Positions 1-58,861 of a stretch of DNA of 64,000 nucleotides are shown here, one piece after another; within the stretch, counting starts at the first letter, position 1; every line of letters begins with the position of its first letter. The DNA comes from Zygnema cylindricum (lineage: Eukaryota > Streptophyta > Zygnematophyceae > Zygnematales > Zygnemataceae): positions 62,001-126,000 of the forward strand of contig JBBHKE010000140.1 in assembly GCA_037447655.1 (NCBI GenBank), in the 5' to 3' direction. The translations under genes were made by a program, and so were the position numbers. Below the pieces are notes generated by a model. It worked only from the letters and a program-made list of their open reading frames with translations. It was not told the origin of the DNA and searched no databases.

Positions 1-1374
1 CCATGCATATGTGCCGTGATAAAGAACTCTTCACTAAGCTACAAAAGATTCCTACTGTAGAGATAGAGTATGGGGATGGGAGAGTGGTTTTCTTCAGATC
101 TAGTGGGATCAGTAGATCTGAAAGTCTTAGTGGAGGGTAACACCTCTATACTTACATTCTCAGATGTACTTTACATTCCTTAGCTGAGTAAAAATCTTGT
201 CTCTACGTCTGTGTTAGATGACAAAGAGTTTGATACCTTCACCAGAAAGGGAGTCTTTACAGCTAAGTATGGGAATGAAGTTTACTTCACAGCAGATAAG
301 GGTAGCCAAGGAATGTTTAGGCTTAACTTGAGTAATGAAAAGAAGAATGCTTACTATATTGGTGTTCCTAAGGTGATGATTTGGCATAAGCGTTTGGGGC
401 ATGTGCATTTTGATAGGTTAAGGGAAATGAAAAAGCTTGGGGTAGTAGATGGCATTCAGTTTGGGGATAATGAAATAATGGATGATTGTAGTGGTTGTGC
501 TCAAGGTAAGGCTCACAGACTTCCCTTTCCCAAAGCCGCCACATATAGAGGTGAGAAAGTGTTAGATTTGGTCCACACAGATATTTGGGGACCTGCAAAA
601 GTACCTTCGGTTGGAGGAAAGAGGTTTATGATGACAATAACTGATGATTGGTCTAGATACTCTAGAGTCTACTTTCTGAAAAATAAGTCTGAAGCATCCA
701 CTTACTTCAAAGAATATAAAGCTTGGAGTGAGAAGTTGCATGAAACCCCTATTAAGAGGATAAGGAGTGATAATGGGGGGGAATATACCTCTAACCAGTT
801 TGAGGAATATTTGAGAGATGAGGGAGTGCAACACCAGAAAACTGTACCATATAACCCGGAACAAAATGGGGTAGCTGAGAGGTTGAATAGAACACTAGGA
901 GATAGTGCATGCAGTATGTTGGCAGACAAGAAAATAGGAAAGAGATTTTGGGCAGAGGCAATGAACTGTGCCAACTATATTAAGAATAGAGTCCTCACCT
1001 CAGCTGTAAAGGGAGTCACACCTAATGAGAGATGGGTTGGAAGGAAACCAGATATCTCACACCTTAAAGTATTTGGTAGCCAAGTTTACAGTCTTGACAC
1101 GGATAGGAAAAACTGGAAACTAGATGCTAAGGGAAAACCTGGATACTTTGTGGGATATGATCAGGATGTTAAGGGATATAGAGTATATGACTTGGCAAAG
1201 AAAGATATCATTCTGGTCAAACACTTAGTTGTCATGGATGAAGGGAAGTCATTTGACCCCTTCAAATATACAAAGAAGATTAGGATCAGATTTGAGTCTG
1301 AAAGTGAGGAGAACTCGGTCGTTCCCGAAAAGGATATGGGTGACACCGTGATTACAGATTTAGGGGAGATCTAA
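1..1374 (+). pseudogene. copia protease end and integrase, broken
   Basis: Bases 1-100 translate as the region just after the protease active site (MHMCRDKEL, IEYGDGR). A frame change near 100 and a TAG at 181-183 follow. From 211 the frame reads integrase: a zinc finger with WHKRLGH, then CSGC, then the catalytic core with Asp in HTDIWGP, Asp in RSDNGGEY and Glu in QNGVAERLNRT (the D,D,E triad). The frame ends at an in-frame TAA at 1372-1374; the same frame continues into the reverse transcriptase part, so this is a single stop inside one polyprotein and not a natural end. Inactivated but little diverged from the copy at 44794. Confidence 0.93.
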
Positions 1375-3194
1375 GATACAGGAGACTCACCGGAAACCTC
1401 ACATACACCTATGGACTTCGAGGAGATAGAAGAAGCGGGACAAGAACCGGTTTCCATGGACAGGGGAGCCGATGAAACAGTGAGAAGAAATCCAAGACTT
1501 CCATCCATTCTTGCTTCACAGTTTGAGGGAGGAAGAAGGAGCAGCAAAAGATTACAGGAAAAACAAGTCGCTCATAAGGTAACTAAGCTATCTCACCCTG
1601 ATGAGCCTCAGTCTTACTCGGAGGCAGTGAATAGTCCAGAGAAAGAAAGATGGATTAGAGCTATAAATGATGAGATGGCTTCTATCATGGAAGCAAATAC
1701 CTGGGAATTAGCAGATTGTCCTCCAGACAGAAAACCTATTGGGTGTAAATGGGTATTTAAACTAAAACTGAACCCAGATAATACCATTGAAAGATATAAG
1801 GCTCGATTGGTAGCGAAGGGGTTCACCCAAAAGGAAGGGATTGACTATGAGGAGACCTTTGCTCCAGTTGTTCGATTCCCTTCAGTAAGGATTCTCCTCA
1901 GCCTGGCAGCAGCGGAAGACATGGAAATCCATCAGATGGACATTAAGACTGCGTTTCTTAATGGTGAGTTAGAGGAAGAAATTTTCATGAGACAACCCGA
2001 GGGGTTCGTGGAGGAAGGAGAAGAGAGCAAAGTTTGCAGGCTCATAAAGTCCTTATATGGACTAAAGCAGGCTCCCCGACAGTGGAACAAGAAACTAGAT
2101 GAGTTTCTTACCAGTCTGGGATATATCCGTATAAGCTCTGACCATTCTATCTATATGTTTGAAGATGAGAATGGTGTCATTTTTATTGCAATTTATGTGG
2201 ATGATCTGCTTGTGTTGAGTAAATCCTTGGAAAAGATCAATAAGTTAAAAACAGAACTTAGAAGCAGATTTGATATGAAGGATTTAGGGGAGGCAAAATA
2301 TATTTTGGGGATTCAGATGGAGAGAGATAGGGGGAAGAAGATTATCAGACTTACTCAGAAAGAAGCAATAGTAATATGCTTGAGAAATTCCAGATGGAAA
2401 ATGCTAACAGTTGTACCACTCCCATGGACTTGAAAAAAGTAAGTGATGGGAGTGTAGAAGGAGGAGTAATTATCTTAGATGATCAAATGAGTATTGAAGA
2501 GAGAGAGTTTATGAAGACTATCCCTTATAGACAGGTCGTAGGAAGTTTAATCTATTTTATGAATTGTACCAGGCCGGACATAGCGGCAGCAGTTGGAGTA
2601 CTCAGTAGGAGTCTGAATGATCCTAGGAAGAGGGATTGGGAGGCAGCCAAGAGAGTCATGAGATATCTGGTTGGAACCAGAGAGTTATGGTTGCATTTGG
2701 GAGGGGAGCACACTGACATCACTACTTGGAGTGATGCCAGTTATGGGGACGCACCTATGAGACGATGCACTTCTGGGTATGTGTTGTATGTTGGGGAAGG
2801 TGCATGCTGTTGGAGCAGTAAGCAACAAAAGGTGGTTGCACAGTCCACCATGGAGGCTGAGTACATGGCCTCTTGTTCTGCTGTGAAAGAGTTGATGTGG
2901 GTCAAGTCCTTGCTGCAAGAACTTGGGTATATGAAGGAGGGAGTGCATGAAGTGTTTTGTGATAATCAAGCGGCCATAGCAATTGCAGCAAATCCAAAAC
3001 ATCATTTTAAGGCTAAACATATGGACATAAGATTAAGTTTTGTAAGAGAAAAAGTTGAGAATAAAATAGTGAATCTTGTATATAGATCTGATGAGGAAAT
3101 GGTAGCGGACATGATGACCAAACCTGTACCCTCGCCGAAATTAAAATACTGCAGGGAAAAATGTGGATTAAAAGAAAAATTAAAAATAGACTAG
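1375..3194 (+). pseudogene. copia reverse transcriptase and RNase H, frameshifted
   Basis: The part from 1411 carries copia reverse transcriptase: CKWVFKLKLNPD, KARLVAKGFTQKEGIDYEETFAPVV, QMDIKTAFLNGEL, SLYGLKQAPRQW and the catalytic YVDD box (AIYVDDLL). A one-base deletion near 2370, judged against the copy at 46980, shifts the frame. The second part (2376-3194) carries RNase H with CTRPDIAAAVG, SSKQQKVVAQSTMEAEY, DNQAA and ADMMTKPV, and ends at a natural stop just before the polypurine tract. Apart from the frameshift and the upstream stop, all catalytic residues are present, so loss of function appears recent. Confidence 0.93.
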
Positions 3195-4210: not shown

Positions 4211-5434
4211 GAAGATATACCCCGCCAAGACAGATTATTAATGGCGGCGGAGGCCATGGTAAAGGCAGACCGGAGAAGGGAGGTGGAGGCAAGGCTGGAG
4301 CTTGGGGAGACAGCCAGTAGCGAGGCAGGGGAGGCGGAGACCAGTGGAGGAGAAGGGTCAGAAAATTCACAAGACCCTGAATACAACCAACTTCAGGAGG
4401 AGGACCTGGAGGATGAGGAGGATCATGAGATCTCTAACGCTGAGGAGCCGGAGCGGGAATCGACACCTCCGCCAATTGAGGAGCATGCCTCTGATCTGGT
4501 GGTGATGAGGGACCCCAATAAGGAGAGCACCGCAGATGAACAGTCTTCAAAAAGCGCGGAAAAGAAAGCGGAAGCGCAGTACCCCAGCGGAGACGATGTA
4601 TTTCTCGTTCGAGGGGATGAAGGGGACACAGACGAGGAGAGTGAAAAAGGAGAGGAAATTCCCAATTACCTCTTCCCACTCCCTACTGACACCGGGCATC
4701 CGGACCTCACCTTCAGCTTCGCTAAGCGCTTTTATTCTGATCATTCGGAGTGGGCGGAAGAGTGGCGCACTGGAAAACTTGGGGACCCCATTAATATTCC
4801 CGCCGATGTGCCGTCACACCCGGCGTGGAACTTTATGAGAACGAAGGACCATAGGAATAACCATATGGGTTATGTGCAATTAAACCCTCGTGCCATGCCG
4901 TTTGTGGAAGTAATCGAAGACAACTATAGGTACAAGGTGGATGTTCCTGGGTTGCTCCGCCATTATCACCCGTGGGATGTCCGCCTTCATGGCATCATCT
5001 CTTGAGCGGAGGTCACACCCGCGGTACGCACACTCAAGCTCGCCCGAAAGTACGCTCTGCAGCGGGCCCGAGGTGTCAGGAAACATGTTTCCTTCAAATT
5101 AAAGAAGGTACCTCGGTGGGAGCCGATCGACGAAGTGGCGGAAAGTACACACCAGGTTAAGGAACTCGAGTCCCCTCAAGTTGTGGTACCCGAAGAATCT
5201 GTACCGGCGGCCGTTCCGCCCACACTCGTAGCACCAACAGCAATACCAGAGGAAGGGGAGGACCAAGTTGGGGAGCGAATCACTCGGAGACAATTGGCGG
5301 CGGCAGATGATCATATCGCGCTACTAGAGACTCAATGTGAGCAGCTCCAAAATCAAATTGACTTTCTGCGAAAGGAATTCGAGGAGTATCGTGAGGAGAC
5401 ATACGACATACTCCGTCAACAACAATTTCCTTGA
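4211..5434 (+). pseudogene. acidic coiled-coil repeat-borne ORF, copy 1
   Basis: Unknown family; I do not recognise the protein. The 5' end, including a short KRRRL basic motif seen in copies 2 and 3, is cut off by copia element 1. What remains has an acidic Glu/Ser/Pro-rich first third, a central block with YLFPLPTDTGHPDLTFSFAKRF, WAEEWRTGK, GYVQLNPRAMPFVEV and HPWDVRLHGIIS, a TGA at 5003-5005 where the other copies have Arg, then a basic stretch (LKLARKYALQRARG), a Pro/Val/Ala linker and a C-terminal coiled coil (LLETQCEQLQNQIDFLRKEF). It keeps Trp at PAWNF, which is lost in the other two copies. A retroelement gag-like role is possible but unproven. Confidence 0.6.
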
Positions 5435-11056: not shown

Positions 11057-12274
11057 CTTTAAAACATATAGATTCCTGAATCGATACAAATCCTATTTTT
11101 ACTTTCACAAGCATGTGCATCTACAAGGATACGAAATTTGTTAGAATATTCAGCTATTGTACCACCAGTGTACTTATAGTCCCAAATTTTTCTAGCCAAT
11201 AGAAGCTCTTCCTGGACATTGGCCTTTTCATAATCACTTTTAAGAGATTTCCAGATATCAATTGCTTTTTTCATTTTTATCCTAGACATAGCTAAGTCCT
11301 TAGATATACAAAATTTCAGAATAGAACGAGCTTGCGTATTTTTCTTAGACCATGACGGATCAGATTCATCCAGCGAACCATCCAAGATATTTAAAAGATT
11401 AACATTTTCAAAGTGTGTCTCCACCATATCCGCCTAGTAAACATACTTATCCCCGGAAAAGATAGGAATTGTTGAAGATACGCCCATAACCTGTTGTTCT
11501 ACAACCACCGGTGCAGGTGGAGGAGCAGTAGTAGTAGTAGAAGTAGACATGATACACTCTCAAAAGCTATCGAGAATCTTACCAAACAGCTTTTCTTAAG
11601 TGCTCACGAACTCTTATACAAGCATCCAAACTTCACAAAACTCTATCATAATATAGAGTAGCATAAACAATGATAACTCCCAAAGTTTCAGCAGAATTGA
11701 CCCGACAACACTCAAGAAATAATACTCAGAAGTTTCCCAAAAACTGTCTGCAGTTTTACTACTTGGAAGTCTGGATACATAATATGTTATGATTCCTAAG
11801 TCTTATACTTGTGTTGAACTGGCAACACCATTGTACTTGAGAGGTACATCAAACCACCAAGCTACCACTAATCTGTCAAGCTACCATTGAGCTATCACTA
11901 AGCTACCACTGGGCTATCACTAAGCTACCTAGAATCGAATCTATCGCAGTTGCTCTATCGTGTACAGAATCACATTAAGAATATCAAACGATGGGTTATC
12001 CGTACGGACCATATCAAATATAATCGTGGTTGCGTTGTCCTGTCTGTGTTGCAGCTTCGCTGCTGCGCTGCTCTACTGCTGCGCTGCTCTGGTGTATAGC
12101 AGTTGCTCTGCTGTATAGCAGCTGCTCTGCTGTATAGCAGCTGCTATGCTGTATAGTAGCTGCGCTGCTCTGTTGTATAGCAGCTCCGCTGCTCTGTCTG
12201 TATAGCCGCTGCGCTGCTTTGTCTGTAAAGCAGCTGTGCTGCTCTGAGACTGAAAGCTTTCCAAAAAGACAACA
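11057..12274 (-). mobile_element. copia family B, minus-strand copy
   Basis: Reading down from 12274: LTR 12274-11492 (783 bp, starts TGTTGTC), one-base spacer, primer-binding site 11490-11481, then the gag core to about 11108. The LTR and gag match the plus copy at 8521. It abuts decayed gypsy sequence at 12275. No target duplication was found. Confidence 0.85.
11108..11550 (-). pseudogene. copia family B gag fragment (minus strand)
   Basis: The start codon is at 11550 inside the LTR. The same gag core follows as in the plus copy, with VYWADM changed to VY-stop-ADM (TGG to TAG near 11436), so it is broken. The frame WKSLKSDYEKANVQEELLLARKIWDYKYTGGTIAEYSNKFRILV continues without the plus-copy stop. 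Similarity to the plus copy ends near 11108, shortly before the gap. Confidence 0.85.
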
Positions 12275-13173: not shown

Positions 13174-14755
13174 GATGCGCCAGCGGCGGAGCCACAATCG
13201 CAGGCATCGCAGGATGTCAACGTAGGTTTTGTGAAGACAAACACCACAGCGTCGGACGCAGCGCAAGAACCGAAACTCAGCGCAGTCACCAGTACGTTGC
13301 AAGTGGATGAGAAGTGGCTAAGTAGGATCAAGGCTGCTTACGACGAAGATGAGACAATAAATGAACTCATTAAACGGAAGTTATTAATTCGAACCCCTAA
13401 TGGTATGTGGCGGTACAGACCGAGTCAAACAACACGACTTTATGTTTCGACAAATCCGGAGTTACGTCATGTAATACTTAAGTTGAGTCACGACGAGCCA
13501 CGCAGTGGAGATTTTGGGCGAGATAAAACAACTGCCCGTGTCGCTGAGGCATATTACTGGCCGAACATGACTCGGGATATTGCAGAGTATGTCCATACGT
13601 GTGATTCCTATAATAGGATTAAATCGGAATCGGGACACGAAGGTCTGTTACAACCCCTCCAGATACCAGCTGTTCCTTGGGATGCGATCTCAAGGATTTC
13701 ATCAAGGCTCTCCCGTTGACTAAGGAGGGCTATGACTCCATCTTCGTCGTCGTGGACTATTTGACAAAAATGGCTCATTTCCTACCCACGTCAACTACAA
13801 CCACTCTGCGGGATGTAGGGGACTTTTTCTTTCGGGAGATATTTAGTCATCACGGACTTCTGAAGAAGATCCTCAGCGACCGCGATCGGAAATTTGTAAG
13901 CCACTTTTGGAGAAACCTATTTGAGCTGTGTGGCACACAGTTGGCCATGTCCACAGCTTACCACCCTCAGACTCACGGACAGCCTGAAAAGGTGAATCGG
14001 ACTTTGGAGAAGGCTTTGCGGGCGTAGGTCTCAGTCCACCAAACGGATTGGGTGAACCATTTAACAGCGATAGAGGTGGCGTACAACAGTGCGGTACACT
14101 TGTCCACAAATGCTACGCCATTCTCCCTTAATGGTCGACAGCCCACCCTACCCCAAAATCTATTGGTGGTAAACTGCCCGACACCCGCAACTCTGGAGTT
14201 TGCCCAAATGCTGCAAGGGAACCTGGAAAAGGCGGCAAAGGTGCTCCAGATTGGCAAGGATCGCCAAAAGTCGCAGGCCGACACTCACCGGAAAGACACT
14301 GTTTTCAGCGTGGGTGATAAGGCCCGCCTTAATATGGCAAACTTATCATTGTTGGTTGCCCTCTCGAAGAAATTGGCACCGAAATTCACGCGCCAATTCA
14401 TCGTTCTTTCGCGTGTGGAAGAGGTGGCATATAAGTTGGATATACCAAACGACTGGCATATCCATGATGTGTTCTATGTTTCCCTTCTCAAACCATTTCG
14501 TGACCCCGATTCGATATTTCTTGGTCGACAACGGAATACTCCTTTACCGCCCGTTAGGGGTACTTCGGATCAGTATGAGGTGGAAGAGATCCTTCAGTCG
14601 CGTCCCTCTCAAGATTCCAACTTGAACCAAAATTTGGTCCGTTGAAAGGGCTACAAAATTGAGAACGACTCTTGGGTGGACGAGGAGGATGTGCATTCAC
14701 TTGAGTTGCTGCGCAAGTTTCAGCAGAGTGTGGACACACGGCTTCACCGGAGGGG
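13174..14755 (+). pseudogene. gypsy integrase with C-terminal chromodomain, broken
   Basis: The zinc finger region (LSHDEPRSGDFGRDKT, YVHTCDSYN) has Tyr where the last Cys is expected. A frame change follows near 13690. The catalytic core has Asp in VVDYLTKM, Asp in LSDRDRKF and Glu in GQPEKVNRT. After a stop at 14025 the frame resumes with the integrase C-terminus (GDKARLN, HDVFYVSLLKPF). The end is a chromodomain: YEVEEILQSR, then LVR-stop-KGY (TGG to TGA, 14643-14645), then SWVDEEDVHSLELLRKF. Chromodomains direct integration to marked chromatin; the lost Trp is one of its aromatic residues. Confidence 0.9.
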
Positions 14756-14787
14756 CAATCGCAGCGATCGTGGTAAAGGAGAGAAAT

Positions 14788-15218
14788 GCAGCGTCGCAAC
14801 CATCGCAATAATATTGGGGACACGACAAAGAAACGCAGCGGCGATGTTACCGCACCGTAGCGCTATAGCTGCGCAGCCACCACAACGTAGCACGGTCACG
14901 ATGCCGTCTGAGGAGCGCAGCGCCACTGCTGCGCTGACAGGGAAGCGCAACGGCGCAATTTTGTTTCACCACATTGGTAACAACGAACCCTTGATTTCAC
15001 CGCACCAGCGCAGTTTTACATATATTGGACGCTGTGATACCCTCACACGTTGTGACGCTTCCCAGAGTCCAAACGTGAAACCCTCAACCCTTTATGATAA
15101 AGTCGCCATCCGCCATCGCGACCAACCTAGTATAGGCAGTTTGGAGAGTGTTTCACGCCGCACCACCAGCTTACATTCTCTTCTAGAATTGCCTGAATTG
15201 TCATACACGAAAGTATCC
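14788..15218 (+). other. GCAGC-rich region between gypsy pol and acidic ORF copy 2
   Basis: Open in one frame but low complexity. It holds many GCAGCG/GCTGCGC motifs (14795-14960), then a block (ACGTTGTGACGCTTCC, 15048-15063) that matches the 5' flank of copy 3 near 21540 on the minus strand. It is therefore probably the 5' region of the acidic-ORF repeat, or a gypsy LTR, and not coding. Confidence 0.4.
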
Positions 15219-16022
15219 ATGGCGTTTTCATCCTCCCCACCACCAAAAAGGAGGAGACTGGTACAGGTGGGACAAGGGGATTTGCCCCGTCCAGATAGAT
15301 TGTTAGTAGTAGCGGAGGCCATGGTAGAGGCAGACCAGAGAAGAGGGGTAAAAGCGCAGCCGGAACCAGAAAAAACCGCCAGTAGCGAGGCCGGGCCAGC
15401 AGAGACTAGTGGAGGGGAGGGGTCAGAGAATTCACAGGACCGCGAGTATAACCCACTACGGGAGGGAGATAAAGAGGATGATGAGGATCAGGAGCTCTCA
15501 AAGGTAGAGGAGCCAGAACAAGAACCAACACCTCCACTAATTAAAGAGCGCGCCTCGGATCTGGAGGTGATGAGGGACCCCAACAAGGAGAGTACCGCAG
15601 ACGAGTTGTCTTCTGAAAGCGCGGAAAAGAAAGCGGAAGCACAATACACCAGTGGAGATGATGTGTTTCTGGTTCGGGGAAGTCAAAGGGAGACGACCGA
15701 GGAGAGTGAAAAAGGAGAGGAAATTCCCGAATACCTCTTTCCACTCCCTATGGACAAACGACATCCGGACCTCACCTTTAACTTCGCGAAGCGCTTTTTT
15801 TGGGATCCAGCAGAGTGGCCTGAGGAATGGCGTACTAGGAAGTTTTGGGATCTCATCTATATCCCCGCCAACGTACCGTCTCACTCGGCTTGAATTTTAT
15901 GTGGACAAAGGACCTCGGGAACAACCACAAGAGTTATGTGAAGCTAAATCCCCATGCCTTGTCATTTGTCGAAGAAGTTGAAGATAACTACCGGTACAGG
16001 GTGGATGTTCCCGGGTTGCTTC
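15219..16022 (+). pseudogene. acidic coiled-coil repeat-borne ORF, copy 2, N-terminal part
   Basis: Starts MAFSSSPPPKRRRL, so it has the basic KRRRL motif (possible nuclear signal) that copy 1 lacks. The acidic Ser/Glu/Pro-rich region and the FPLPMDKRHPDLTFNFAKRFF block follow. A one-base deletion at the conserved Trp codon (near 15891) breaks the frame. The sequence then continues (GYVKLNPHALSFVEEVEDNY equivalent) up to 16022, where the TRIM is inserted. The rest lies at 18809-19369. Function unknown. Confidence 0.6.
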
Positions 16023-16127
16023 TGTTGGATTGGCACGTGAAGCCGGTCCAATACGGGGTAGAATATGGAAATATCCATACTCGACCCGCCTGTAATAAAT
16101 GGGTACGGACCCACCAGTCTCAACATC

Positions 16128-16199
16128 AAGCTGATGGCACAGTGGTAGTGCGTTCGCAGCTGAAGTGAAAGGTCCCAGGTTCGAACCCTGGCCGGCTCA
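16128..16199 (+). tRNA. tRNA-like sequence inside TRIM LTR 1 (slightly decayed)
   Basis: Same layout as at 18685-18756. The two end pairs of the acceptor stem are mismatched (A-C), but the T-arm is perfect (CCAGG and CCTGG around TTCGAAC). The A box is TGGCACAGTGG, the B box GGTTCGAACCC, and TTTT follows at 16201-16204. Probably not a decoding tRNA because position 33 is G, not T. Confidence 0.7.
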
Positions 16200-16251
16200 A
16201 TTTTCCCAAGTGTGGGACATGCCGAATCCTGGATTTCTAGGAAATCTATCA

Positions 16252-16308
16252 TAGTATCAGAGCCAGCGTGATTGCGGATGGTTTGACCGGCTTTCCCGTG
16301 AGGGGGGG
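16252..16308 (+). other. TRIM internal region: PBS and PPT
   Basis: PBS reads TAGTATCAGAGCCAG here, one mismatch from the 3'-end complement of initiator tRNA-Met; the second copy (18523) has TGGTATCGGAGCCAG. The polypurine tract of seven G ends at 16308. Only about 30 bases lie between them. Confidence 0.9.
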
Positions 16309-16356
16309 TGTTGGATTGGCACGTGAAGCCGGTCCAATACGGGGTAGAATATGGAA

Positions 16357-18436
16357 TACAACCACCGGTGCAGGTGGAGGAGCAGTAGTAGTAGTAGAAG
16401 TAGACATGATACACTCTCAAAAGCTATCGAGAATCTTACCAAACAGCTTTTCTTAATTGCTCACGAACTCTTATACAAGCATCCAAACTTCACAAAACTC
16501 TATCATAATATAGAGTAGCATAAACAGTGATAACTCCCAAAGTTTCAGCAGAATTGACCCGACAACACTCAAGAAATAATACTCAGAAGTTTCCCAAAAA
16601 CTGTCTGCAGTTTTACTACTTGGAAGTCTGGATCCATAATATGCTATGAGTCCTAAGTCTTATACTTGTGTTGAACTGGCAACACCATTGTACTTGAGAG
16701 GTACATCAAACCACCAAGCTACCACTAATCTGTCAAGCTACCATTGAGCTATCACTAAGCTACCACTGAGCTATCACTAAGCTAACTAGAATCATATCTA
16801 TCGCAATTGCTCTATCCTGTATAGAATCACATTAAGAATATTAAATGTTGCGTTGTGCGTACGGACCATATCAACCATAATCATGGTTGCCTTATCCTGT
16901 CTGTGTTGAAGCTTTGCTGCTGCGTTGCTCTGCTGCTGCGCTGCTCTGTTTTATAGCAGCTGCTCTGCTGCTGTATAGCAGCTGCGCTGCTCTTAGACTG
17001 AAAGCTTTCCAAAAAGACAACACTCCCCTAAAGCTTTAGACTCAGTATCCCGACGCAACTGCGGTGATAAACTAGCGCAGCATCGCAGCATCGCAATATA
17101 GCAATTAGCAAGTCACCTAGTCCCACTACCTCACAATGGTGGAATTATTGCAGAGTGTCAGTAAACAGTGCATCAATTCAACTATTCACTTAATCCCACT
17201 GCGTCTCTACAATACTTCAGCTTAGGAGCAGGAAGGGCTTTAGTGAGCATATCAGCAATCATTTTTGCATCTGGCATATAACATAATTTAATCACTCTAG
17301 AGAACACCTTTTCTCTTACAAAGTGTAATCGTACATCCATGTGCTTGCCTGGTTATCACACCAGATTATCTGTGGACCAACTTGCATGTATCCTAGTTCT
17401 TGTAACATGGATTTTACCCATAAGAGTTCTTTGAGGGCCGAGCTTGCTGCCATATATTCTGACTCCATTGTCGACTGTGCTGTAACCTTTTGAAGTTTGC
17501 TGCTCCAGGAGCAAGTACCGTTCCCAATTTGTAGAACGAATCCCGTGGTGGATTTCCGGCTTGGCATGTCGCCATAGCTTGCATCACTCCATGTTTGCAG
17601 CTTGACTTATCCTCCGCCTAGAGTGAGTTTGAGATCTTTAGTTCCTGCCAAATATCTTAAGACTCTCTTTGCTGCATCAAGATCAGATTTTCTCGGATTT
17701 TCTAGACTCCTGCTCAGTACCCCGACTGCTGCAGCAATGTCAGGACGGGTACAGTTCATGAAATATATTAAGCTTCCCACTATGTGTCTATAAGGTATTA
17801 TTGTCACAGGATCATTCTCCCCTGACTCTAAATACTCGCTAACAATGACACCTGGTTCTGTCTCTTCTCCCTCTAACTTCTGCCGAAACTCCATTGGAGT
17901 TAAACATCCCTTTGCCCCCCGTATTCCGTACTCATCTAACATGTTTCCAATAGCCTCTTTTTGAGTCAATTTTATAATTTTCTTATTTCTGTCCCTCTCT
18001 ACCTGGATACCCAAAATATATTTTGCCTCACCGAGGTCTTTCATCTCGAACCGTGAGTTTAGAGCAGTTTTGATATTGTTAATTTCAGCCATTGATTTGC
18101 TAATTTATAGTAAACCATCTACATATATTGCTATATACACTATCCCATTTTCACCCTTTAGAACGTAGACAGAGTGATCAGAACTTATCCTTTGAAATCC
18201 TAGACTAGTCAAGAATTCATCAAGCTTTATATTCCACTGTCTGGGGGCCTGTTTTAGGCCGTACAAAGATTTTAGCAACTTGCATACTAAGTGCTATTTT
18301 CCTGGTTCCACATACTTTTCATGCTGCTGCATGTAAATGGTCTCTTCTAGTTCTCCGTACAAAAAGGCCGTTTTTACATCATCTGATGAATTTCCATATC
18401 TTCTATAGCAGCTAGGGACAGCAAAATCCTAACTGT
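16357..18436 (-). mobile_element. copia element C, minus strand, 5'-deleted, nested in TRIM
   Basis: Reading down: reverse transcriptase and RNase H (18430-17215), polypurine tract (TTTAGGGGAG, near 17032-17023) and a 3' LTR of family B type (17022 to about 16357). The LTR ends with the gag start (ATG at 16406), as in family B. gag, integrase and the 5' LTR are missing, and the centre of the host TRIM LTR is missing at the same joint (18436/18437), so one deletion probably removed both. Confidence 0.88.
17215..18430 (-). pseudogene. copia C reverse transcriptase and RNase H, broken
   Basis: Reads LLKSLYGLKQAPRQWN, then the catalytic box as YVDG instead of YVDD followed by a stop (near 18115-18135), then SRFEMKDLGEAKYILGIQ, CTRPDIAAAVGVLSRSL and RNase H (WSSKLQKVTAQSTMESEYMAASSALKELLWVKSMLQELGY, WCDNQA). 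Several stops split it. The second catalytic Asp is lost, so it is inactive. The sequence is clearly of the same superfamily as copia element 1 but in a different family, since its LTR is type B. Confidence 0.9.
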
Positions 18437-18684
18437 TGAAAGGTCCCAGGTTCGAACCCTGGCCGGCTCAATTTTCCCAAGTGTGGGACATGCCGAATCC
18501 CGGATTTCTAGGAAATCTATCATGGTATCGGAGCCAGCGGGATTGCGGATGGTTTGACCGGCTTTCCCGTGAGGGGGGGTGTTGGATTGGCACGTGAAGC
18601 CGGTCCAATACGGGGTAGAATATGGAAATATCCATACTCAAGTCGCCTGTAATAAATGGGTACGGACCCACCAGTCTCAACATC

Positions 18685-18756
18685 GAGCTGGTGGCACAGT
18701 GGTAGTGCGTTCGCAGCTGAAGTGAAAGGTCGCAGGTTCGAACCCTGGCCGGCTCA
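18685..18756 (+). tRNA. tRNA-like cloverleaf inside TRIM LTR 3
   Basis: 72 nt that fit a canonical cloverleaf: acceptor 18685-18691 with 18749-18755 (seven pairs, one T-G), D-stem GCAC/GTGC with loop AGTGGTA, anticodon stem 18710-18714 with 18122-equivalent 18722-18726, a 7-base loop AGCTGAA, a 5-base variable loop, T-arm GCAGG/CCTGG around TTCGAAC, discriminator A. A box TGGCACAGTGG (18692-18702) and B box GGTTCGAACCC (18735-18745) are textbook, and TTTT follows at 18758-18761. By position the anticodon is CTG, but position 33 is G, so decoding is doubtful. It lies at LTR bases 106-177. Confidence 0.8.
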
Positions 18757-18808
18757 ATTTTCCCAAGTGTGGGACATGCCGAATCCCGGATTTCTAGGAA
18801 ATCTATCA

Positions 18809-19369
18809 GCTTCCCCATTATCATCCGTGGGATGTCCGCCACCATGACATCATCTCTAGGGCAGAGGTCACCCCAGAGGTACACGCACTCAAGCTGGCCC
18901 GGAAGAAAAACTGCAGCGGGCCCGAGCTACTATGAAATATGCGTCCTTCAAGCTAAGGAAGGTACCTCGGTGGGAACCAACTCAAGAAGAGGCGGAAGAG
19001 AACCAACAACTTGCAAAACCGGAAGCGCCCCAAATTCCAGCACCCGAGGAGCCTACACCGGCGGCAATTTCGCAACAACTCGAGGGACCAGAAGTTGTAC
19101 CAGAGGAAGAGGAGGACCAGGTTCGCGAGCAAATCACTCGAAGAAGATTGGCAGCGGCAGACCATCATATTCCGCTGCTAGAGACCCGGTGTGAGCAGCT
19201 CCAAAACCAACTCGACACCCTGCAACAAGAGTTCAAGGAGTACGGTGAAGAGACGTACGACATACTCCGACAATTGCAATTTCCCTATGCCAGTAAGGTT
19301 CAGCCGGACGCTAAAGCCCTAGTAGGAGGCACTGTAACAAGGTTACAGAGTTGGGTACTTAGTAGCTAG
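18809..19369 (+). pseudogene. acidic coiled-coil repeat-borne ORF, copy 2, C-terminal part
   Basis: Resumes right after the TRIM with HHPWDVRHHDIISRAEVTP-equivalent sequence, then SFKLRKVPRWEP, a Glu/Pro-rich linker (EEPTPAAISQQLEGPEVVPEEEEDQ) and the coiled coil (LLETRCEQLQNQLDTLQQEFKEYGEETYDILRQLQFP). There is a frame change near 18910. It ends at a TAG near 19367. Joined with 15219-16022 it is the same unit as copies 1 and 3. Confidence 0.6.
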
Positions 19370-19984: not shown

Positions 19985-21377
19985 TCAGAGAAATTGCAAC
20001 TGCCGGAGTATATCGTATATTTCCTCGCGATACTCCTCGAACTCCTAGCGAAGGGCATCGAGTTGATTTTGGAGCTGCTCACATCGGGTCTCCAGCAACG
20101 CAATGTGATGATCTGCTGCCGCCAACCGCCTCCTAATGATTCGCTCCTGAACCTGGTCTCCCCCCTCTTCGCATGCAGAGTCAAGTGCTTCGGGTTGTGG
20201 CGGAATGGCCGCCGGTGCAGGCTCCTCGAGTGCCGGACCTTGGGGTTCTTCGGGTTCGATAACTGGGGGAACTTCCTCCGCCCCTTCGTTTGCTAGTTCC
20301 CACCAAGGTACTTTCCGTAACTTGAAGGACACGTGCTTCCTTACAGCTCGGGCCCGCTGCAGAGCATTCTTTCGGGCCAGCTTGAGTGCCCGTACCTCAG
20401 GGGTGACCTCTGCCCTAGAGATGATGTCATGGAGGCGGACATCCCACGGGTGATACTGAGGGAGTAACCTTGGAACATCTATCCTGTACAAGTAGTTGTC
20501 CTCCACTACTTCCACAAACGGTAGAGTATGTGGGTTTAACTGCACATAACCCTTGTGATTGTTTCCGAGTTCTTTTGTTCTCAAAAAATTCTAGGCCGGG
20601 TCTGATGGTATGCTGGCGGGAATAAAGATAGGGTCCCTAGGTTTTCCCGTACACCACTCCTCGGGCCACTCTTTGGGATCCCAATACAAGCGTTTCGCAA
20701 AGCCGAAGGTGAGATCCGGATGATGTTTCTCAATAGGAAGTGGAAAAAGGTAATCGAGAATTTCCTCTCCTTGTTCAATCTCCTCGGCCGTCTCCCTTTG
20801 ACTTCCCCGAAGGAAAAACATCTCGTCTCCACTAGGGTATTGTGTTTCCGCTTTCTTTTTCGCGCTTTCGGAGGATTGCTCGTCAGAGTTACTCTCCTTG
20901 TTGGGGTCCCTCATCACCTCCAGATCCGAGGCGCGCTCCTCAATTGGCGGAGGCGTTGGTTCTCGTTCTGGTTCCTTCGCCTCCGAGATCTCATGAGCTT
21001 CTTTATATTCCTGATCCCTTTCCCGGGTTGGGGTGTATTCGGGGTCCTGTGTGTTTTCCAACCCCTCCCCTCCACTGGTCCTTGCCGGCCCTGCCTTGCT
21101 ACTGGCGGTTTCTTCTGGTTTTGGCTGCGCTTCTACCTCTCTCCTCCGGTCTGCCTCTACCATGGCCTCCGCCGCCATTAATAATCTTTGGGGACGGGTT
21201 ACATCTTCTTGTCCCACTCGTACAAGTCTCCTCCTTTTCGGTGGTGGAGAGGACGACGACGCCAAAGACAGTACTGTAGAAGACAATTCTGGTAGTTGCC
21301 GAAGGGAAGGCAACATCTTCTTGTCCAACTCGTACAAGTCTCCTCCTTTTCGGTGGTGGAGAGGACGACGACGCCAT
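19985..21377 (-). pseudogene. acidic coiled-coil repeat-borne ORF, copy 3
   Basis: Start at 21377 (MASSSSPPPKRRRL); an internal tandem duplication of about 90-100 bp repeats this start near 21280 and shifts frame. The main part (21337-20591) has the acidic region and FPLPIEKHHPDLTFGFAKRLYW; the conserved Trp is TAG near 20592. Next comes GYVQLNPHTLPFVEVVEDNY and HPWDVRLHDIISRAEVTPEVRALKLARKNALQRARA (20584-20045). A TAG separates the coiled coil's second half, ending at 19985. The central block and the C-terminal coiled coil are the best conserved parts in all three copies. Confidence 0.6.
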
Positions 21378-32324: not shown

Positions 32325-33598
32325 GGTGACCATTTTTATGTCAACGGGCAACATGCTCATATCAAGTTCCGCACCTTTAATTCGGTAAGTACCAAATGTG
32401 GAAAGCATCTAAAAACAAAGCTTCTCGCCTGATTGGCACATGATGGCGTGTGACGGATCGCTTTGTACTTTCCACACGGCTAGAAGTGCATGTGCGTAGA
32501 CTAAATGATCCTCATAAGTTAAAACATGCGGTGTTCAAAAGAGAATTAATGGATGATTCATAGTTAAGTCATAACAACTTTACAAGTATAACTGGTTGAG
32601 GCTCACATAAAATGGTTTGGCATCCATTGCAGGCACCGAAGAGCTACTTCGATAATTCTCGCTTCGTGATTCCCCTCATCGCAGTACAAATTCCAAGCGG
32701 CAATAGCATCCTAAACCTCAACTTGGGCGACACAAACAAGCAAGCCTACCCTGATGAGCGTCGATGCCTTGTCTTTGCGACGTATCCCTCAACGGCACCT
32801 TGTACCTGTTCTACTTTTAAAACTCTTGCCTCACCACCTCCACCATCCCCTCCACCACCTCCACCATCCCCCCCTCCTTCACCTTCACCGCCTCCACAAT
32901 CTCCTCCTCCACCTTCTCCTTGTCCTCCCTCACCTTCTCCTCCACCTCCATCACCGCCCCCACCTCCACCATCCCCTCCTCCTCCTTCACCTTCACCCCC
33001 CCCTCCATCACCTTCGCCCCCTCTACCATCTCCTTCCCCACCTTTGCCACCTCCTCCCTCACCTTCTCCCCCACCTCCATCCCCACCTTCCCCTCCTCCT
33101 TCGCCCTCGCCACCTCCACCATCTCCTCCTCCTCCACCCCCTCCTTCACCGCCTCCTCCTCTCGCATGCAACACCTCTTGCCCATCCACTTCGTTGGAGC
33201 TTTGTGACTTCTACTTAACGAGACACGAGAGTGAAATTCTTACGATTGAGCTTGTAAATGGCGAGGGAACGTGTTTGAGTAGCGGTTTGAGGACGAATAA
33301 AACCGGCGCTGAGGTTGTCGTTGAGGTGGACGAGTCCGGTTCAGCTCTCTTCCGAGAATGTCCGGCATGTACTAACACTGTCGAAAACCAATTCTACCTA
33401 AATTGGGAAGATGTTTTCTTGAAAGCCCTGACCTTCCAAACAATACCGGGCATTGATTACTTCCGCAGCCGTTGTGTCATGTTGCCCGTTACCGTGTTCA
33501 GAATCGCCTATAAGGGTGTGGCTTTTAATGTACCGGCAGATGATACGAAGAACCTCTTTACCACTGCAAGAAAATGTGTGATGTTCAAGACGTCTTAA
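32325..33598 (+). CDS. pherophorin-like protein, 3' exons
   Basis: Extracellular-matrix or wall glycoprotein type, judged by architecture. Exon 32325-32384 (GDHFYVNGQHAHIKFRTFNS) ends at GTAAGT; the intron 32385-32632 ends TTGCAG; exon 32633-33598 runs to TAA in the same phase. A first globular domain ends RCLVFAT, then a rod of SPPPP-type repeats (about 32830-33165), then a second domain ending RKCVMFKTS. The two domains match each other: DHFYVN with NQFYLN, TFNS-YFDNSRFVIPL with TFQT-YFRSRCVMLPV, and the final Cys motif. Such paired domains around a hydroxyproline rod are typical of pherophorins. The upstream exon part is lost or moved: a stop lies in the LTR fragment just before 32321. Confidence 0.75.
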
Positions 33599-42431: not shown

Positions 42432-43474
42432 TGTAGAAACTAATGGTTTTAAGTATTTTCTAGGTCTGAAAAGAAATAAAGAAGTCGAGGCAGTCTATCT
42501 CTAACTTCTCTCTCCAACTCTCAAACTTGTCGCAGTCACTGAGAAATTGGAGAGGAAGCTAGAGTCATGGCTACCTTGGCTATCTTGAGGTTTACGGGAA
42601 TTTTATATTAGGGTTTATTTATTTAAAAGGTATGTGCCGGCGGCAGGATTTGATCCTTGTACCTACCGGCCGGCAGACAGGAATTAGCCGGTAGCCTTAG
42701 CCGTTAAGTCTAGCAGTGGTGTTACGTACTATATAGTTTGATATTTATTTAAATACGTATACGTACGATAAATCATTTAACTGTTATGGATTACGCGATA
42801 CATAGATCCAGTAGTATATAATGTACGAATTACGGTACGGACAAAAATCAATACCGCGCATTTGTTTCGTAAGTGAACCAAATACCGCGCATGTATTTAT
42901 TACGGCTACGATTAAATCCGAATTTAATCGGACGGCCGGGATTAGCGTCGAGATCGCGGAGGAAGATTTCGACGGTTTGTGGCCATCGCCACATCGGATG
43001 ACGCGTGGCGAAATTCCGTTGGATTGTGGAATCTCCGAAGATTATGGCACCGAATCCGGATTTGACATGTGTCGACATTTAGGCCATGTCGTACAATGTC
43101 CGTACCTAAAGTATACCGGCAGCTGTACTTTTGCGTACGGAACTCAATTCTGATTGGTTCCGTACATCAGTAGATAGAGTCTGTGAGAGAGATAAGACTT
43201 AGAAAAATTAGAAGATAGGACCCCCTCTCCCAAAGAGCTTCTGTACAAAAGGTCAACTTTGACCCTCCATAACTTACTGCTCAGGGGAGCAAATTCAGAG
43301 ATTCTTTTTGCTACCGACTCAGGGGAGTCTTGCCTTCACAGAGGTGCAGGTGGTCAGAGTTTTTGTTTGCCAGGGTGGCAATTATTTTTGCTGAAACACA
43401 AAGGGGTCAGGATTATCCTAGAGGCTTCTTAGAAGTTGTCTACTCTGAGGACTTATGGAGGTCTCAGAGTTTCA
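42432..43474 (+). repeat. 5' LTR
   Basis: Starts TGTAGAAACT, ends GAGTTTCA. gag ATG at 43455 is inside it, 20 bases from the end. Confidence 0.95.
42625..42712 (-). ncRNA. antisense tRNA-like Pol III unit in 5' LTR
   Basis: A box TAGACTTAACGG (42712-42701), continuing CTAAGGC, B box GGATCAAATCC (42656-42646), TTTT (42628-42625), minus strand. It begins 193 bases from the LTR start, exactly as in the 3' LTR. Confidence 0.65.
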
Positions 43475-44578
43475 GGATATGGGCCCACCCTCTAGGGTAC
43501 CAATCTTTAATGGAACTGGCTTCATATATTGGGAAAGTATGATGATAGGAGCTCTATGCGAAAAAAGGTTTTGGGGGATAGTGAGTGGACGGTTGGGGCG
43601 TCCATCAAGTCTTGGAATTCCTCCAGGGTTTGAAGGAACCAGATTCACCAGGAAAGAGGACCCACCTTCAACAGAGGAAACAAAAGAAGGAGAGGTGGTG
43701 CACAAAGGAAAGGAGAAGGAGACGACCACACCAATAGCAAGAGGTTCGACATTCATGTCACCTATTCCGAGGAATGAGGAGAATGATACTGAAACCTGGG
43801 ACTTCAACAATATGGCGGCAAAACACTTCATCCTACGCCATCTCACTCAAGGACTTGCATGTCCTCATTTGCAGGTAGAAAGGGCATCCGATCTTTGGAT
43901 GGCTCTCATAGAGATGTACCGAAGTGGTACGATTCAGCAACTAGAGTTGGCTGATCAGAAAGTTAAGGAGTATGTATACAAAGGGGGAAATATGTTGGAT
44001 TTTTGCAATGAGCTTGCTACACTCTTCATGGAGCTAAAGAGTGCGGGAAAAGATTATAGTGAAAAAGAAAAGGTTAACTGTTTACTTATGAAGTTACCTG
44101 ATGAGTTCGTGAACATAGTTTACCGTGTGCAGGACTTGCCTGACTCAAGGTGGATATGGAACTCAGTGGTAGGGATGATTCTCGTTCAAGAGAATACAAT
44201 TGAGATCCGAGAGGGAGGAAAGAGTGGCCAAGCCTTGGCAACAGCGACTGATTGGAGGAACAAGGATTCCCGAAAACCGGTCGGAAACTATGGGGGTAGG
44301 GAGCAGAAAAAAACAGGCCCATGAGTTTGAACCAAGGGCTCCCAAAGGTCTATGTCATTTTTGTAAGAAACCGGAGCACTATATGGCAGAGTGCACTAAG
44401 CTAACCGAGCTTCGGTTAAAGGAGGGGCAGACCGGTGGTACCCCGAGAGGAAAGAAAAAGGCCCTTGTCACACAGGTACTTGAGGCTGAATCCGAGGACG
44501 AGGACGATGAGCTCCTTTTGGATGAGGAGTTGGAGGCGAAAAATGAGGTCGAAATTCCACGAAGGCAGAAATGTGCTT
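43455..44578 (+). pseudogene. copia gag
   Basis: Starts MEVSEFQDMGPPSRVPIFNGTGFIYWE within the LTR. The core (DLWMALIEMYRSGTIQQLELADQKVKEYVYKGGNMLDFCNEL) precedes a frame change at an A7 run near 44309. The zinc knuckle CHFCKKPEHYMAEC (CX2CX4HX4C) and an acidic stretch (EDEDDELLLDEELE) follow, then IPRRQKCAYGGLKG leading into protease. It packages element RNA. The start codon is taken at 43455 because the same ME-start is conserved at the end of all complete LTRs of this family. Confidence 0.9.
43476..43489 (+). other. half initiator tRNA-Met primer-binding site
   Basis: GATATGGGCCCACC, one base after the LTR; 13 of 14 bases match the complement of the initiator tRNA-Met anticodon arm. It encodes the DMGP residues of gag, so PBS and gag overlap. 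Confidence 0.75.
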
Positions 44579-46007
44579 ACGGTGGATTGAAAGGTGAAGC
44601 AGGCTGGATTGTAGATTCAGGTGCCTCCATGCACATGTGTAAGGATAGACACATGTTCACTAAGATAAGAAAGATTCCCACCGTAGAGATAGAGTACGGG
44701 GATGGGAGGATAGTCACCACTACTCTTGTAGGATCGGTAGATCTAAAAGTGTTAGTAGAAGGAAAGACATCCATATAAACATTCTCCGATGTATTGTTTA
44801 TTCCGGAGCTGAACAAAAATCTTATCTCTACATCAGTATTAGATGATAAGGGTTTTTTTACTAGCACTAGGGAAGGAGTCTTTACTGCTAGTTTTGAGGA
44901 TGATGTCTATTTCATTGCTGAGAAAGGTAGCCATGGGATGTTTAGGTTGATCTTAAGTAATGAAAAGAAGAAACTTTATTATGCTGGTGTTCATGATATT
45001 ATGATGTGGCATAAGAGGCTTGGGCATGTGAATCTAGATAAGCTAAGAGAGATGAAAAAGATGGGAGTGGTGGAAGGGATTCAGTTCAGTGAGAGTGATG
45101 ATATAAGTGATTGTAGTGGATGTGCTCAAGGTAAAGCACACAGATTACCCTTTCCTAAGTCAGCCACCTATAAGGGAGAAAAAATTCTAGATCTAGTACA
45201 CACAGATATTTGGGGACCGGCTAAAGTGCCCTCACCGGGGGGGAAGGGAATTATGATGACTATAACTGATGATTGGTCTCGGTATTCCCGGGTATATTTT
45301 TTGAAAAACAAGTCCGAAGCTGAGGATTGTTTTAGACAATATAAAGCATGGAGCGAAAAACTCCATGAAACTCCAATCAAGAGAGTAAGGAGTGACAATG
45401 GTGGAGAGTATACTTCTAACCAGTTTGAGGTTTTTTCTGAGGGAAGATAACACCAAAAGACAGTTCCAGAAAATCCGGAACAGAATGGGGTAGCTGAAAG
45501 GTTAAATAGAACACTAAGTGATAGTGCTAGAAGTATGTTGTCAGATAAAAAGATAGGAAAAAGGTTTTGGGCAGAAGCAATGAACTGTGCTAATTACCTC
45601 AAGAATAGAGTTCTTACTTCAGCTATAAAAGATCAAACACCTTATGAGAGATGGACAGGCCGAAGACCAGACATATCTCACTTAAAGGTTTTCGGCAGTC
45701 AAGTGTTCAGTCTAGATACTGATCGGTCCAATTGGAAGCTAGATCCTAAAGGAAAACCGGGATACTTATAAAGATATGATGAAGATGTTAAAGGATATAG
45801 AGTTTATGATCTAAAAAGGGAAGATATAATCTTAGTAAAGCATCTAGTAGTTATGGATGAAGGAAAGTCTGTGGATCCCTTCAAATATACGAAGTCAGTA
45901 AAATCAGATTTGAGTCAGAAAATTCCGATGACTTTGAGCTTCCTAACTATCCAGGTTTTAGAGAAGATGACATTCTTGCAGGAACAAATCAGACCGAAAA
46001 GGACTCG
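44579..46007 (+). pseudogene. copia protease and integrase, broken
   Basis: Protease active site WIVDSGASMHMC. A TAA at 44776-44778 interrupts before FSDVLFIPELNKNLIS. Integrase follows: zinc finger WHKRLGHVNL and CSGCAQGK, Asp in HTDIWGP, Asp in RSDNGGEY, a frame change near 45425, then QNGVAERLNRT with the catalytic Glu. A TAA at 45769 and a frame change near 45895 break the C-terminal part. Confidence 0.92.
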
Positions 46008-47807
46008 GTTGTGGAAACTCCAGTGACAACTCTACTCGAAGCGGAAGACGTGGTGGAAATAAAATCGGAATCAAGGGATAGGGGAGAAGCCGAGTTTGTT
46101 AGAAATAATCTACGAGAACCATCTATTCCGGCCTCAGATTTTGAGGGGGGGAGGAGAAGTAGCAAAAGACTGCAAGAAAAACAGGTTAATAACAAGGTAA
46201 CTAAACTATCTCATCAAGATGAACCTCAAACTTATGGAGAGGCGATGACTTGTCCAGAAAGAAACCGGTGGAAGACAGCCATCAATGAGGAGATGGCTTC
46301 AATCATGGCAGCCGATACTTGGGAGCTGGTGGACTGTCCACCTAACCGAAAACCAATCGGTTGTAAGTGGGTTTTCAAACTAAAACTGAACCCAGATAAC
46401 ACAATCGAGCGCTACAAGGCCAGATTAGTGGCAAAGGGATTTACACAAAAGGAAGGAATTGACTACGAGGAAACCTTTGCCCCGGTGGTCAGATTTCCCT
46501 CCGTCCGCATACTTCTCAGTTTAGCAGCCGCGGAAGACATGGAAGTGCATCAGATGGACATCAAGACAGCCTTTTTGCATGGAGAATTGGAAGAGGAGAT
46601 CTTCATGCGACAACCCGAAGGTTTTGTGGAGGAAGGAGAGGAGAGTAAGGTATGACGGCTGATTAAATCTCTTTATGGTTTGAAACAGGCACCTCGACAA
46701 TGGAATAAGAAGCTTGATGAGTTTCTTACCGGTCTGGGATGTATTCGGATCAGCTCAGATCACTCAATCTATGTTTTTGAAGATGAGGAAGGTTTGATAT
46801 TTATTGCAATTTATGTTGATGATTTGCTTGTATTAAGTAAATCAATGGAAAAAATTAACAAACTAAAAATCGATCTTAAGGGGAGATTTGAAATGAAGGA
46901 TATGGGAGAAGCAAGATATATTTTGGGAATTTAAGTAGAGAGAGACCGAAAAAGGAAAATTATAAAACTGACTCAAAAGGAAGCAATAGGGAACATGCTT
47001 GAAAAATTTCAAATGGATAAAGCTAATAGTTGTACAACTCCAATAGAGTTGAAGAAGGGAAGTGAGGGGAGTGAGGAAGAAGGAGTCATAGTCTTAGACG
47101 AGGAATTATCTCCTGAAGAACAGAAGTTCATGCAGACTATTCCTTACAGGCAAGTAGTGGGAAGTCTAATCTATTTTATGAATTGTACCCGGCCGGATTT
47201 AGCTGCAGCTGTAGGAGTGTTGAGTAGAAGTCTAAATGCTCCCACTAAGAAGGATTGGGAGGCAGCTAAGAGAGTCCTTAGATATTTGGTAGGAACTAGG
47301 GATCTATGGTTGCATTTGGGTGGGGAGAATACTGACATCACTACTTGGAGTGATGCCAGTTATGGTGATGCTCCGATGAGGAGATGCACTTCTGGATATG
47401 TATTATATGTGGGTGATGGGGCTTGCTGTTGGAGTAGCAAACAGCAAAAGGTTATTGCTCAGTCCACCATGGAGGCTGAGTATATGGCCTCTTGCTCTGC
47501 TGTAAAAGAATTGATGTGGGTCAAGTCTTTGCTTGGTGAGCTTGGTCACCTTAAGAGTGGTGTGCAGAAAATATTTTGTGATAATCAGGCAGCAATCGCT
47601 ATTTCTGCCAATCCTAAACATCATTTTAAAGCCAAACACATGGACATCAGACTCAGCTTTGTTAGAGAAAAAGTAGAAAACAAAATAATCAGTTTAGAGT
47701 ACAGACCAGATAGTGAGATGGTAGCAGATATGATGACCAAACCTGTGCCTTCCCCTAAGCTAATTTTTTGCAGGGAGAAGTGTGGTCTGAAATTAAAGAT
47801 TGACTAG
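46008..47807 (+). pseudogene. copia reverse transcriptase and RNase H, broken
   Basis: RT with CKWVFKLKLNPD, ETFAPVVRFPSVR, DIKTAFLHGEL and intact YVDD. Stops at 46653 (CGA to TGA before LIKSLYG) and 46932 (CAA to TAA). RNase H from 46995 is open to its natural end (SSKQQKVIAQSTMEAEYM, DNQAAIAI, ADMMTKPVPSPK). The two RT stops are single transitions of the kind caused by C deamination. Confidence 0.93.
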
Positions 47808-58566: not shown

Positions 58567-58861
58567 GAGGATGTATAAAGTTTTCATTGAATATCTATTA
58601 CTTCAAAACAGAGCTGATGCAATTAAACCGAGCGAAAGGTTTAGCAGCAAAAAGAGTATCGTATTGCTTTGAAGTCAAGATTGTAAATAAAAATCTTCAG
58701 TTTTGTAGGAAGAACCACTTGTTGCTTAGATTTGTAATCATGTTTCCGTACGGTGTAATGACTACCAATTGAAATTTAAGGTTCAATAAGGTGGAATCTT
58801 ACTTTGTTGAGAAGGTACAGATCCAACCAGGTTACTCGTATTTGTTATCTTCTGCTTCACT

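Follow-up and report, generated by a model that had tools for sequence, protein, structure and literature searches.

Miniature elements known as terminal-repeat retrotransposons in miniature (TRIMs), in which the long terminal repeats (LTRs) contain tRNA-like sequence, were named Helenus by Kojima 2024 and, in the accessible part of that paper, are recorded from fungi, animals and a single listed plant, Selaginella moellendorffii, and are grouped with Cassandra and Ajax as TRIMp3 (PMC10886601). Transcription by RNA polymerase III (Pol III) is, in that part of the paper, not demonstrated for Helenus either. An element of this kind is present in Zygnema cylindricum, within a stretch of 64,000 nucleotides (the window; positions 62,001 to 126,000 of contig JBBHKE010000140.1, assembly GCA_037447655.1), where a three-LTR array occupies positions 16023-18808. 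An earlier note on this DNA had claimed a miniature LTR element with a tRNA-like gene in its LTRs, which ARAGORN and Rfam bear out in both LTR1 and LTR3, and had held that no TRIM with a tRNA was described, which is contradicted by the description of Helenus.

The element has an anatomy of LTR, primer-binding site (PBS), polypurine tract (PPT) and LTR, with 5-bp duplications, many copies, tandem arrays, covariation of stems between families and recombined copies. It is probably a non-autonomous TRIM of the Helenus kind that is mobilised in trans and, judging from its sequence, transcription by Pol III would begin at the tRNA-like part, the repeated (R) region thus opening with a tRNA-like fold.

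The element is of the Helenus kind, an assignment made by the described features and not by a sequence match to a named family. It has two LTRs, a total length below ~1,000-1,300 bp and no coding genes, the LTRs hold tRNA-derived sequence with A and B boxes, a PBS follows the 5′ LTR, a PPT precedes the 3′ LTR and there is a 5-bp target-site duplication (TSD). As far as the accessible part of PMC10886601 goes, these features are those of Helenus, the 5-bp TSD being found in its plant and fungal members, and several families per genome are found there too. In both cases the tRNA-like parts are mostly judged unlikely to work as tRNAs, there by disagreement of isotype and here by the anticodon loop and the anticodon. 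The dimensions differ, with a 120-bp LTR and an 85-bp internal part in Selaginella against LTRs of 229, 221 and ~245 bp and internal parts of 57-66 bp here, and stem covariation, mixed-family arrays and a hybrid tRNA-like sequence are not met in the accessible part of PMC10886601.

Cassandra also has a small RNA gene with a Pol III promoter in its LTR, forms tandem arrays and has the PBS TGGTATCAGAGC, according to the accessible part of PMC7215508, but the gene in its LTR is 5S rRNA and not a tRNA-like sequence. No 5S rRNA reaches the gathering score in the window, where RF00005 is the only family to do so. The tandemly arrayed TRIMs of Gao et al. 2016 (PMC4717578) provide a further likeness, their L3I2 form corresponding to the array in the window and their L5I4 form to the largest arrays found here, with up to five LTRs (locus L043), whereas the word tRNA has no occurrence in the main text of that paper, as far as it was accessible. 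In the open literature, with subscription papers outside its scope, no paper on TRIMs of the Helenus kind was found beyond Kojima 2024. What appears to be new is that several tRNA-bearing families are found in this genome, and that the shape of the tRNA, beyond the promoter boxes, is apparently kept.

The array in the window

The features of the array are as follows.

16018..16022, no strand: left target-site duplication GCTTC, from alignment with empty paralogous sites
16023..16251, plus strand: LTR1, 229 bp, TG...CA
16128..16199, plus strand: LTR1 tRNA-like sequence, LTR bases 106-177 (ARAGORN; Rfam RF00005, 40.6 bits)
16201..16204, plus strand: TTTT, a possible Pol III stop, one base 3′ of the LTR1 tRNA-like part (from the sequence)
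16252..16308, plus strand: internal segment 1, 57 bp, with PBS-like start TAGTATCAGAGCCAG and PPT-like end GGGGGGG
16309..16356, plus strand: 5′ piece of LTR2, LTR bases 1-48
16357..18436, no strand: 2,080-bp insert within LTR2
18437..18522, plus strand: 3′ piece of LTR2, LTR bases 144-229, including tRNA-like bases 39-72
18523..18579, plus strand: internal segment 2, 57 bp, with PBS-like start TGGTATCGGAGCCAG and PPT-like end GGGGGGG
18580..18808, plus strand: LTR3, 229 bp
18685..18756, plus strand: LTR3 tRNA-like sequence (ARAGORN; Rfam RF00005, 45.9 bits)
18809..18813, no strand: right target-site duplication GCTTC

The perfect 5-bp repeat GCTTC lies on both outer sides of the array, and two empty sites in the window (~4954 and ~20464) are paralogues of the array's host repeat that are uninterrupted at the insertion point. 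LTR1 and LTR3 are both complete and are 97% identical, while LTR2 has lost 95 bases (LTR bases 49-143), with 2,080 bp of other repeats in their place, the left portion of which is 94.6% identical to window positions 11500-12131 and the right portion of which holds minus-strand pieces of a Copia pol. The middle LTR does, as had been claimed, keep the 3′ half of the tRNA-like part. An element of 515 bp (229+57+229) had also been proposed. This unit length is seen at other genomic sites (e.g. locus L010, 686-1200), but the window locus itself, with its three LTRs and its insert, is more than a simple copy of that length. The array lies inside a repeated gene-like sequence, just past the open frame of one copy; this sequence has three copies in the window (4241-5005, 14676-15893 and 20045-21337) and is without a Pfam match.

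The 72-nt tRNA-like part was correctly placed by the earlier note, and ARAGORN calls it tRNA-Gln CTG. The Rfam tRNA model gives E-values of 3.9e-5 for LTR1 and 1.3e-6 for LTR3, calculated for a search of the 64-kb window with 4,227 families, both scores being above the gathering score of 29. Given the ARAGORN call and these scores and E-values, the tRNA-like call is well beyond chance, and a chance call is ruled out by the two programs together with the tRNA-free probe and the genome pattern matches described below. The four canonical arms that had been read from the letters are present as a cloverleaf in the Rfam alignment, they are not perfect however, as two acceptor positions are unpaired in LTR1 and one T-stem pair is broken in LTR3. 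Nor does TTTT follow the tRNA-like part directly, as had been stated, since one A lies in between.

Copies across the genome

The genome (352,776,454 bases in 2,689 contigs) was searched with the LTR, 40 of 951 first-look candidates being scored, and with a tRNA-free probe made of the end of the unique 5′ (U5) region, the internal part and the start of the unique 3′ (U3) region, for which 40 of 1,168 candidates were scored; the copy number of this family, here called A, can thus be given as many. Both queries favour close copies, with old and decayed copies under-sampled. At all 40 places found by the tRNA-free probe a tRNA-like part lies no more than 160 bases away in the adjoining LTR, with two or more at 39 of them, a tally made by script with the window's own place entered by hand. 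The tRNA-like part is therefore a trait of the family, and a single-copy accident is ruled out by the genome copies and the result of this probe.

In 61 loci plus the window there are 112 family-A tRNA-like sequences, of which 109 are near full length and 66 are identical. LTR229-INT57-LTR229 units of 515 bp, without coding genes, are found at many of the 38 fetched family-A sites. A PBS-like TGGTATC[AG]GAGC lies immediately 3′ of the LTR and a G-run precedes the next LTR. Identical 5-bp flanks are found at 25 of the 38, all of them among the 32 sites at which both outer LTR ends are complete; in one more of these (L028) four of the five bases match, in six (L013, L025, L038, L040, L045 and L046) the ends are complete yet there are no matching 5-bp flanks, and the remaining six of the 38 are truncated at one end. 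Adjacent complete LTRs could be compared in 42 pairs, with nine identical, 31 having 1-7 differences over 229 positions, and L066 and L031 having 11 and 16 respectively; as paired LTRs differ so little, family A has been active recently. Exact patterns had no matches in collections of viral contigs and of genome contigs, where records of this genome itself are possibly absent.

At one locus (L083, G000:C144:50400-53200) the LTRs are spaced at 243 bases, with ~17 bases from U5 to U3 replacing the 57-bp internal part, and this array adjoins an inverted copy. Full or partial tandem duplication within the tRNA-like part of one LTR is seen in L084 (459-593) and L068 (1706-1818).

Related families

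A genome pattern running from the start of the B box to the PBS (GGTTCRA, 57-87 bases, TGGTATCAGAGC) has 52 matches, its reversed control has none, and by eye the matches are 33 of A or A′ type, 10 of B type and nine of C type. Family A thus co-exists with a close relative, A′, and with B and C, making four types of one design, with LTRs of 229 bp in A, 221 bp in B and ~245 bp in C. The U3 and internal parts of B and C differ from those of A, C has a distinct tRNA-like body, and the anticodon stem is CTGAC/GTCAG in A′ where A has TTCGC/GTGAA. Ten loci, mostly of non-A types, were picked by hand from the 52 matches (L084-L093) and contain 19 Rfam tRNA matches over the gathering score, from 30.5 to 56.3 bits. 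Six of the ten were inspected for duplications; L092 (A′), L087 (C) and L084 (B, the low-complexity GGGGG) have exact 5-bp duplications, L090 matches at four of five bases, and L085 and L091 have none. A C-type copy in L088 (~position 169) has no U3 and begins in the opening bases of the tRNA-like part.

Possible transcription signals

TTTT is found within 7 nt after the tRNA-like part in 104 of 107 A copies, all six A′ copies and six of seven C copies, but in none of 11 B copies, so that TTTT is not kept in all families; in two of the B copies (L086) a TTTT lies slightly further on. A TATA-like box precedes the start of the tRNA-like part in 10 of 11 B copies, at -32, and in three of seven C copies, at -34; the eleventh B copy is the latter half of an internal duplication. 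This position would suit either RNA polymerase II (Pol II) or Pol III starting at the tRNA-like part. No TATA[AT]A is present in the 45 nt upstream in the six listed A′ copies or in the other four C copies, and in family A the upstream region has, by eye, only TAATAAA.

The alternative that best survives is that the TRIM is transcribed by Pol II from U3, with a TATA box ~32 nt upstream, and that the tRNA-like part is kept as a structure at the 5′ end of the RNA, with a role in packaging, in helping priming or in RNA stability, and not as a promoter. The boxes in B and C agree with this, as do the absence of TTTT directly 3′ of the tRNA-like part in B and the covariation of the stems, by which more than the promoter boxes is preserved. 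Yet the A, A′ and C copies that are without a TATA[AT]A all retain the tRNA-like part and its A and B boxes, and Pol III is the polymerase used by Cassandra, the closest analogue to have been tested (according to work cited in the accessible part of PMC10886601). Transcription from U3 by Pol II is considered unlikely.

Conservation of the tRNA-like part

The earlier note asked whether the tRNA-like part is kept more than the rest of the LTR. Between A and B this is the case, when single representatives are compared (the window's LTR3 and a single LTR from L085), as identity is 94% in the tRNA-like part, compared with 59% in the far U3, 66% in the preceding 36 nt, 59% in U5 and 68% in the internal part; 68 of 72 aligned positions are identical in the tRNA-like part and 105 of 173 in the rest of the LTR (Fisher p 1.3e-8). 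Within family A it is not, the part drifting like its surroundings, which the earlier note would have taken as a sign of a chance insertion. In the 42 LTR pairs there are 0.0198 differences per site in the tRNA-like part (0.0149 without L031) against 0.0105-0.0132 elsewhere, and over 50 loci the mean minor state is 0.0106 in the tRNA-like part against 0.0073-0.0156 elsewhere. Variation within A is however drift after insertion and is no test of the active lineage. The tRNA-like part of C has 64-68% identity to those of A, A′ and B, with shuffled maxima of 57-60%, which is as between any two tRNAs.

Covariation was scored in 16 of the 53 distinct tRNA-like sequences, comprising five of 40 from A (those seen at least twice), all four from A′ and seven of nine from B, two B rows being left out as overlapping copies from the duplication in L084. 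In this set 95.5% of cells pair and the score is 0.202, against 0.137 for shuffled versions, none of 500 being as high, and at most 0.072 for slid versions. Three pairs have changed on both sides (11-24, 27-43 and 29-41). From these alignments it appears that the shape of the tRNA itself is kept, beyond the promoter boxes.

The drift within A, which is no slower than in the remaining LTR, is what would be expected if the tRNA-like part were a functionless passenger, an old tRNA or the head of a short interspersed nuclear element (SINE) caught in an ancestral LTR, and an origin by SINE insertion is proposed for Helenus by Kojima (accessible part of PMC10886601). A passenger does not fit with the identity between A and B, with the compensatory changes in the stems or with the presence of two different bodies, that of A, A′ and B and that of C, in the same position ahead of the PBS, and it is considered improbable. 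A tRNA-derived SINE as such is ruled out by the LTRs, the PBS, the PPT and the fixed 5-bp duplications.

Decoding

The anticodon loop, AGCTGAA, has no U at position 33, and copies of the same body have the anticodons CTG, CTC, CTT and CTA; the missing U33 and the variable anticodon make a role in decoding unlikely, as far as can be judged from the sequence. When 20 fetched host tRNAs are compared, the highest identity reached by any tRNA-like part is 0.71, and by the A type 0.70, with the fetched host Gln (TTG) genes not among the four nearest to the A type. That these are functional Gln tRNA genes dispersed by a retrotransposon, as the ARAGORN call might suggest, is hardly credible, as they have neither U33 nor a fixed anticodon nor a standard body and are so distant from the host tRNAs.

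Recombined copies

Families are mixed at five of the 61 loci, three of the five stemming from the ten picked by hand. L089 and L090 have the order C-LTR, B-internal, B-LTR, and L093 has the order B-internal, B-LTR, A′-internal, A′-LTR, C-internal, C-LTR, whilst in L035 a B-type internal piece lies 5′ of an A LTR. The rule that the internal part matches the downstream LTR held at four hetero-junctions (L089, L090 and twice in L093) and was rejected as it is broken by L035. A B LTR followed by an A internal part, with up to 3 mismatches, has 21 matches in the genome, by eye one of them mixed (the L093 site) and 20 of A or A′ type.

The remaining and most informative case is that of L031 (G000:C66:35250-37180), which has LTRs at 714-944 and 1002-1230 and TGTTA as its TSD. 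The two LTRs are identical apart from 16 reference positions, none of them outside bases 107-144, where in the 5′ LTR the first half of a C-like sequence of the tRNA type is fused to the T arm of A, the hybrid still being called a tRNA by ARAGORN. The left boundary of the hybrid lies at the 5′ end of the tRNA-like part, as could be expected from a template switch during the copying of R, provided that the RNA starts there. Two points count against a template switch, that this is a single case and that normal copying should put the hybrid in both LTRs; as it is in one only, a second, intermolecular step must be assumed. Gene conversion may also have produced the hybrid. Nothing was found in the open literature on strand transfer with chimeric LTRs.

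Proposed mechanism

In the favoured reading of a trans-mobilised TRIM transcribed by Pol III, Pol III would be recruited by the A and B boxes within the tRNA-like part, and the RNA would start at or near the 5′ end of this part. Some transcripts would pass the first TTTT, span the PBS and PPT and terminate inside the 3′ LTR, in its tRNA-like part, or further on, and the R used in the first strand transfer would be the tRNA-like fold, or begin with it. Reverse transcriptase and integrase would be supplied in trans by an autonomous element, probably Copia. Priming would be by a cellular tRNA, probably initiator Met, judging from the 3′ end of this tRNA in plants; an initiator Met tRNA was not among 27 fetched tRNA places. 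Self-priming by the 3′ end of the tRNA-like part is not favoured, as its fit to the PBS, judged by eye, covers 9 of 15 bases that are not contiguous. Selection on the promoter and the fold would preserve the tRNA-like part while the remaining LTR diverges.

A number of points weigh against this proposal. In A, A′ and most C copies Pol III should terminate at the TTTT of the 5′ LTR and so not reach the PBS, and read-through has therefore to be assumed, whilst the TATA box of B and some C copies could equally be used by Pol II. The minimum-energy folds of both tRNA-like copies in the window are not cloverleaves. The LTR parts of A and A′ are all 81-88% identical, with the tRNA-like part no better kept, and exchange, instead of purifying selection, may account for the likeness of this part in A and B. 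Three doubly changed pairs are reached in 149 of 500 shuffles, which ignore relatedness, and two of the three pairs split A′ from the rest and may reflect a single event or replacement by another tRNA. No autonomous partner was found, no TGGTATCAGAGC-like PBS lying beside the Copia elements of the window with up to 2 mismatches, and a B-U3 joined to an A-U5, which frequent mixing of families by strand transfer within R should produce, has no matches in the genome, in a search with no positive-control result.

A more specific proposal, to be regarded as tentative and on balance doubtful, is that R is the tRNA-like fold itself, providing both promoter and homology for strand transfer, with the cloverleaf being selected as such and capable of being swapped between families by template switching, as in L031.

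Other features of the window

Copia elements are found at 211-3194 (integrase and RVT_2 domains) and 43455-47807 (gag domain), with ~75% mutual identity, and the relatives of the Copia reverse transcriptase are plant-like, the first listed being 57% identical over 48% of the query. An open frame at 32612-33598 has a long SPPP-rich stretch and is pherophorin-like by eye, with no Pfam match and no informative relative. Exons of a NAC gene (NAM, PF02365) lie at 58811-59098 and 59832-60137 and suggest a streptophyte host, as NAC genes are not known outside this group.

Significance

Four co-existing types of tRNA-bearing TRIM are added to a kind for which a single plant is listed in the accessible part of PMC10886601. 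The covariation, the conservation between families and the hybrid copy provide evidence on the open question of whether the tRNA-like part is a promoter only or also a working RNA fold. It is also possible that counts of tRNA genes in such genomes are inflated by copies of TRIMs.

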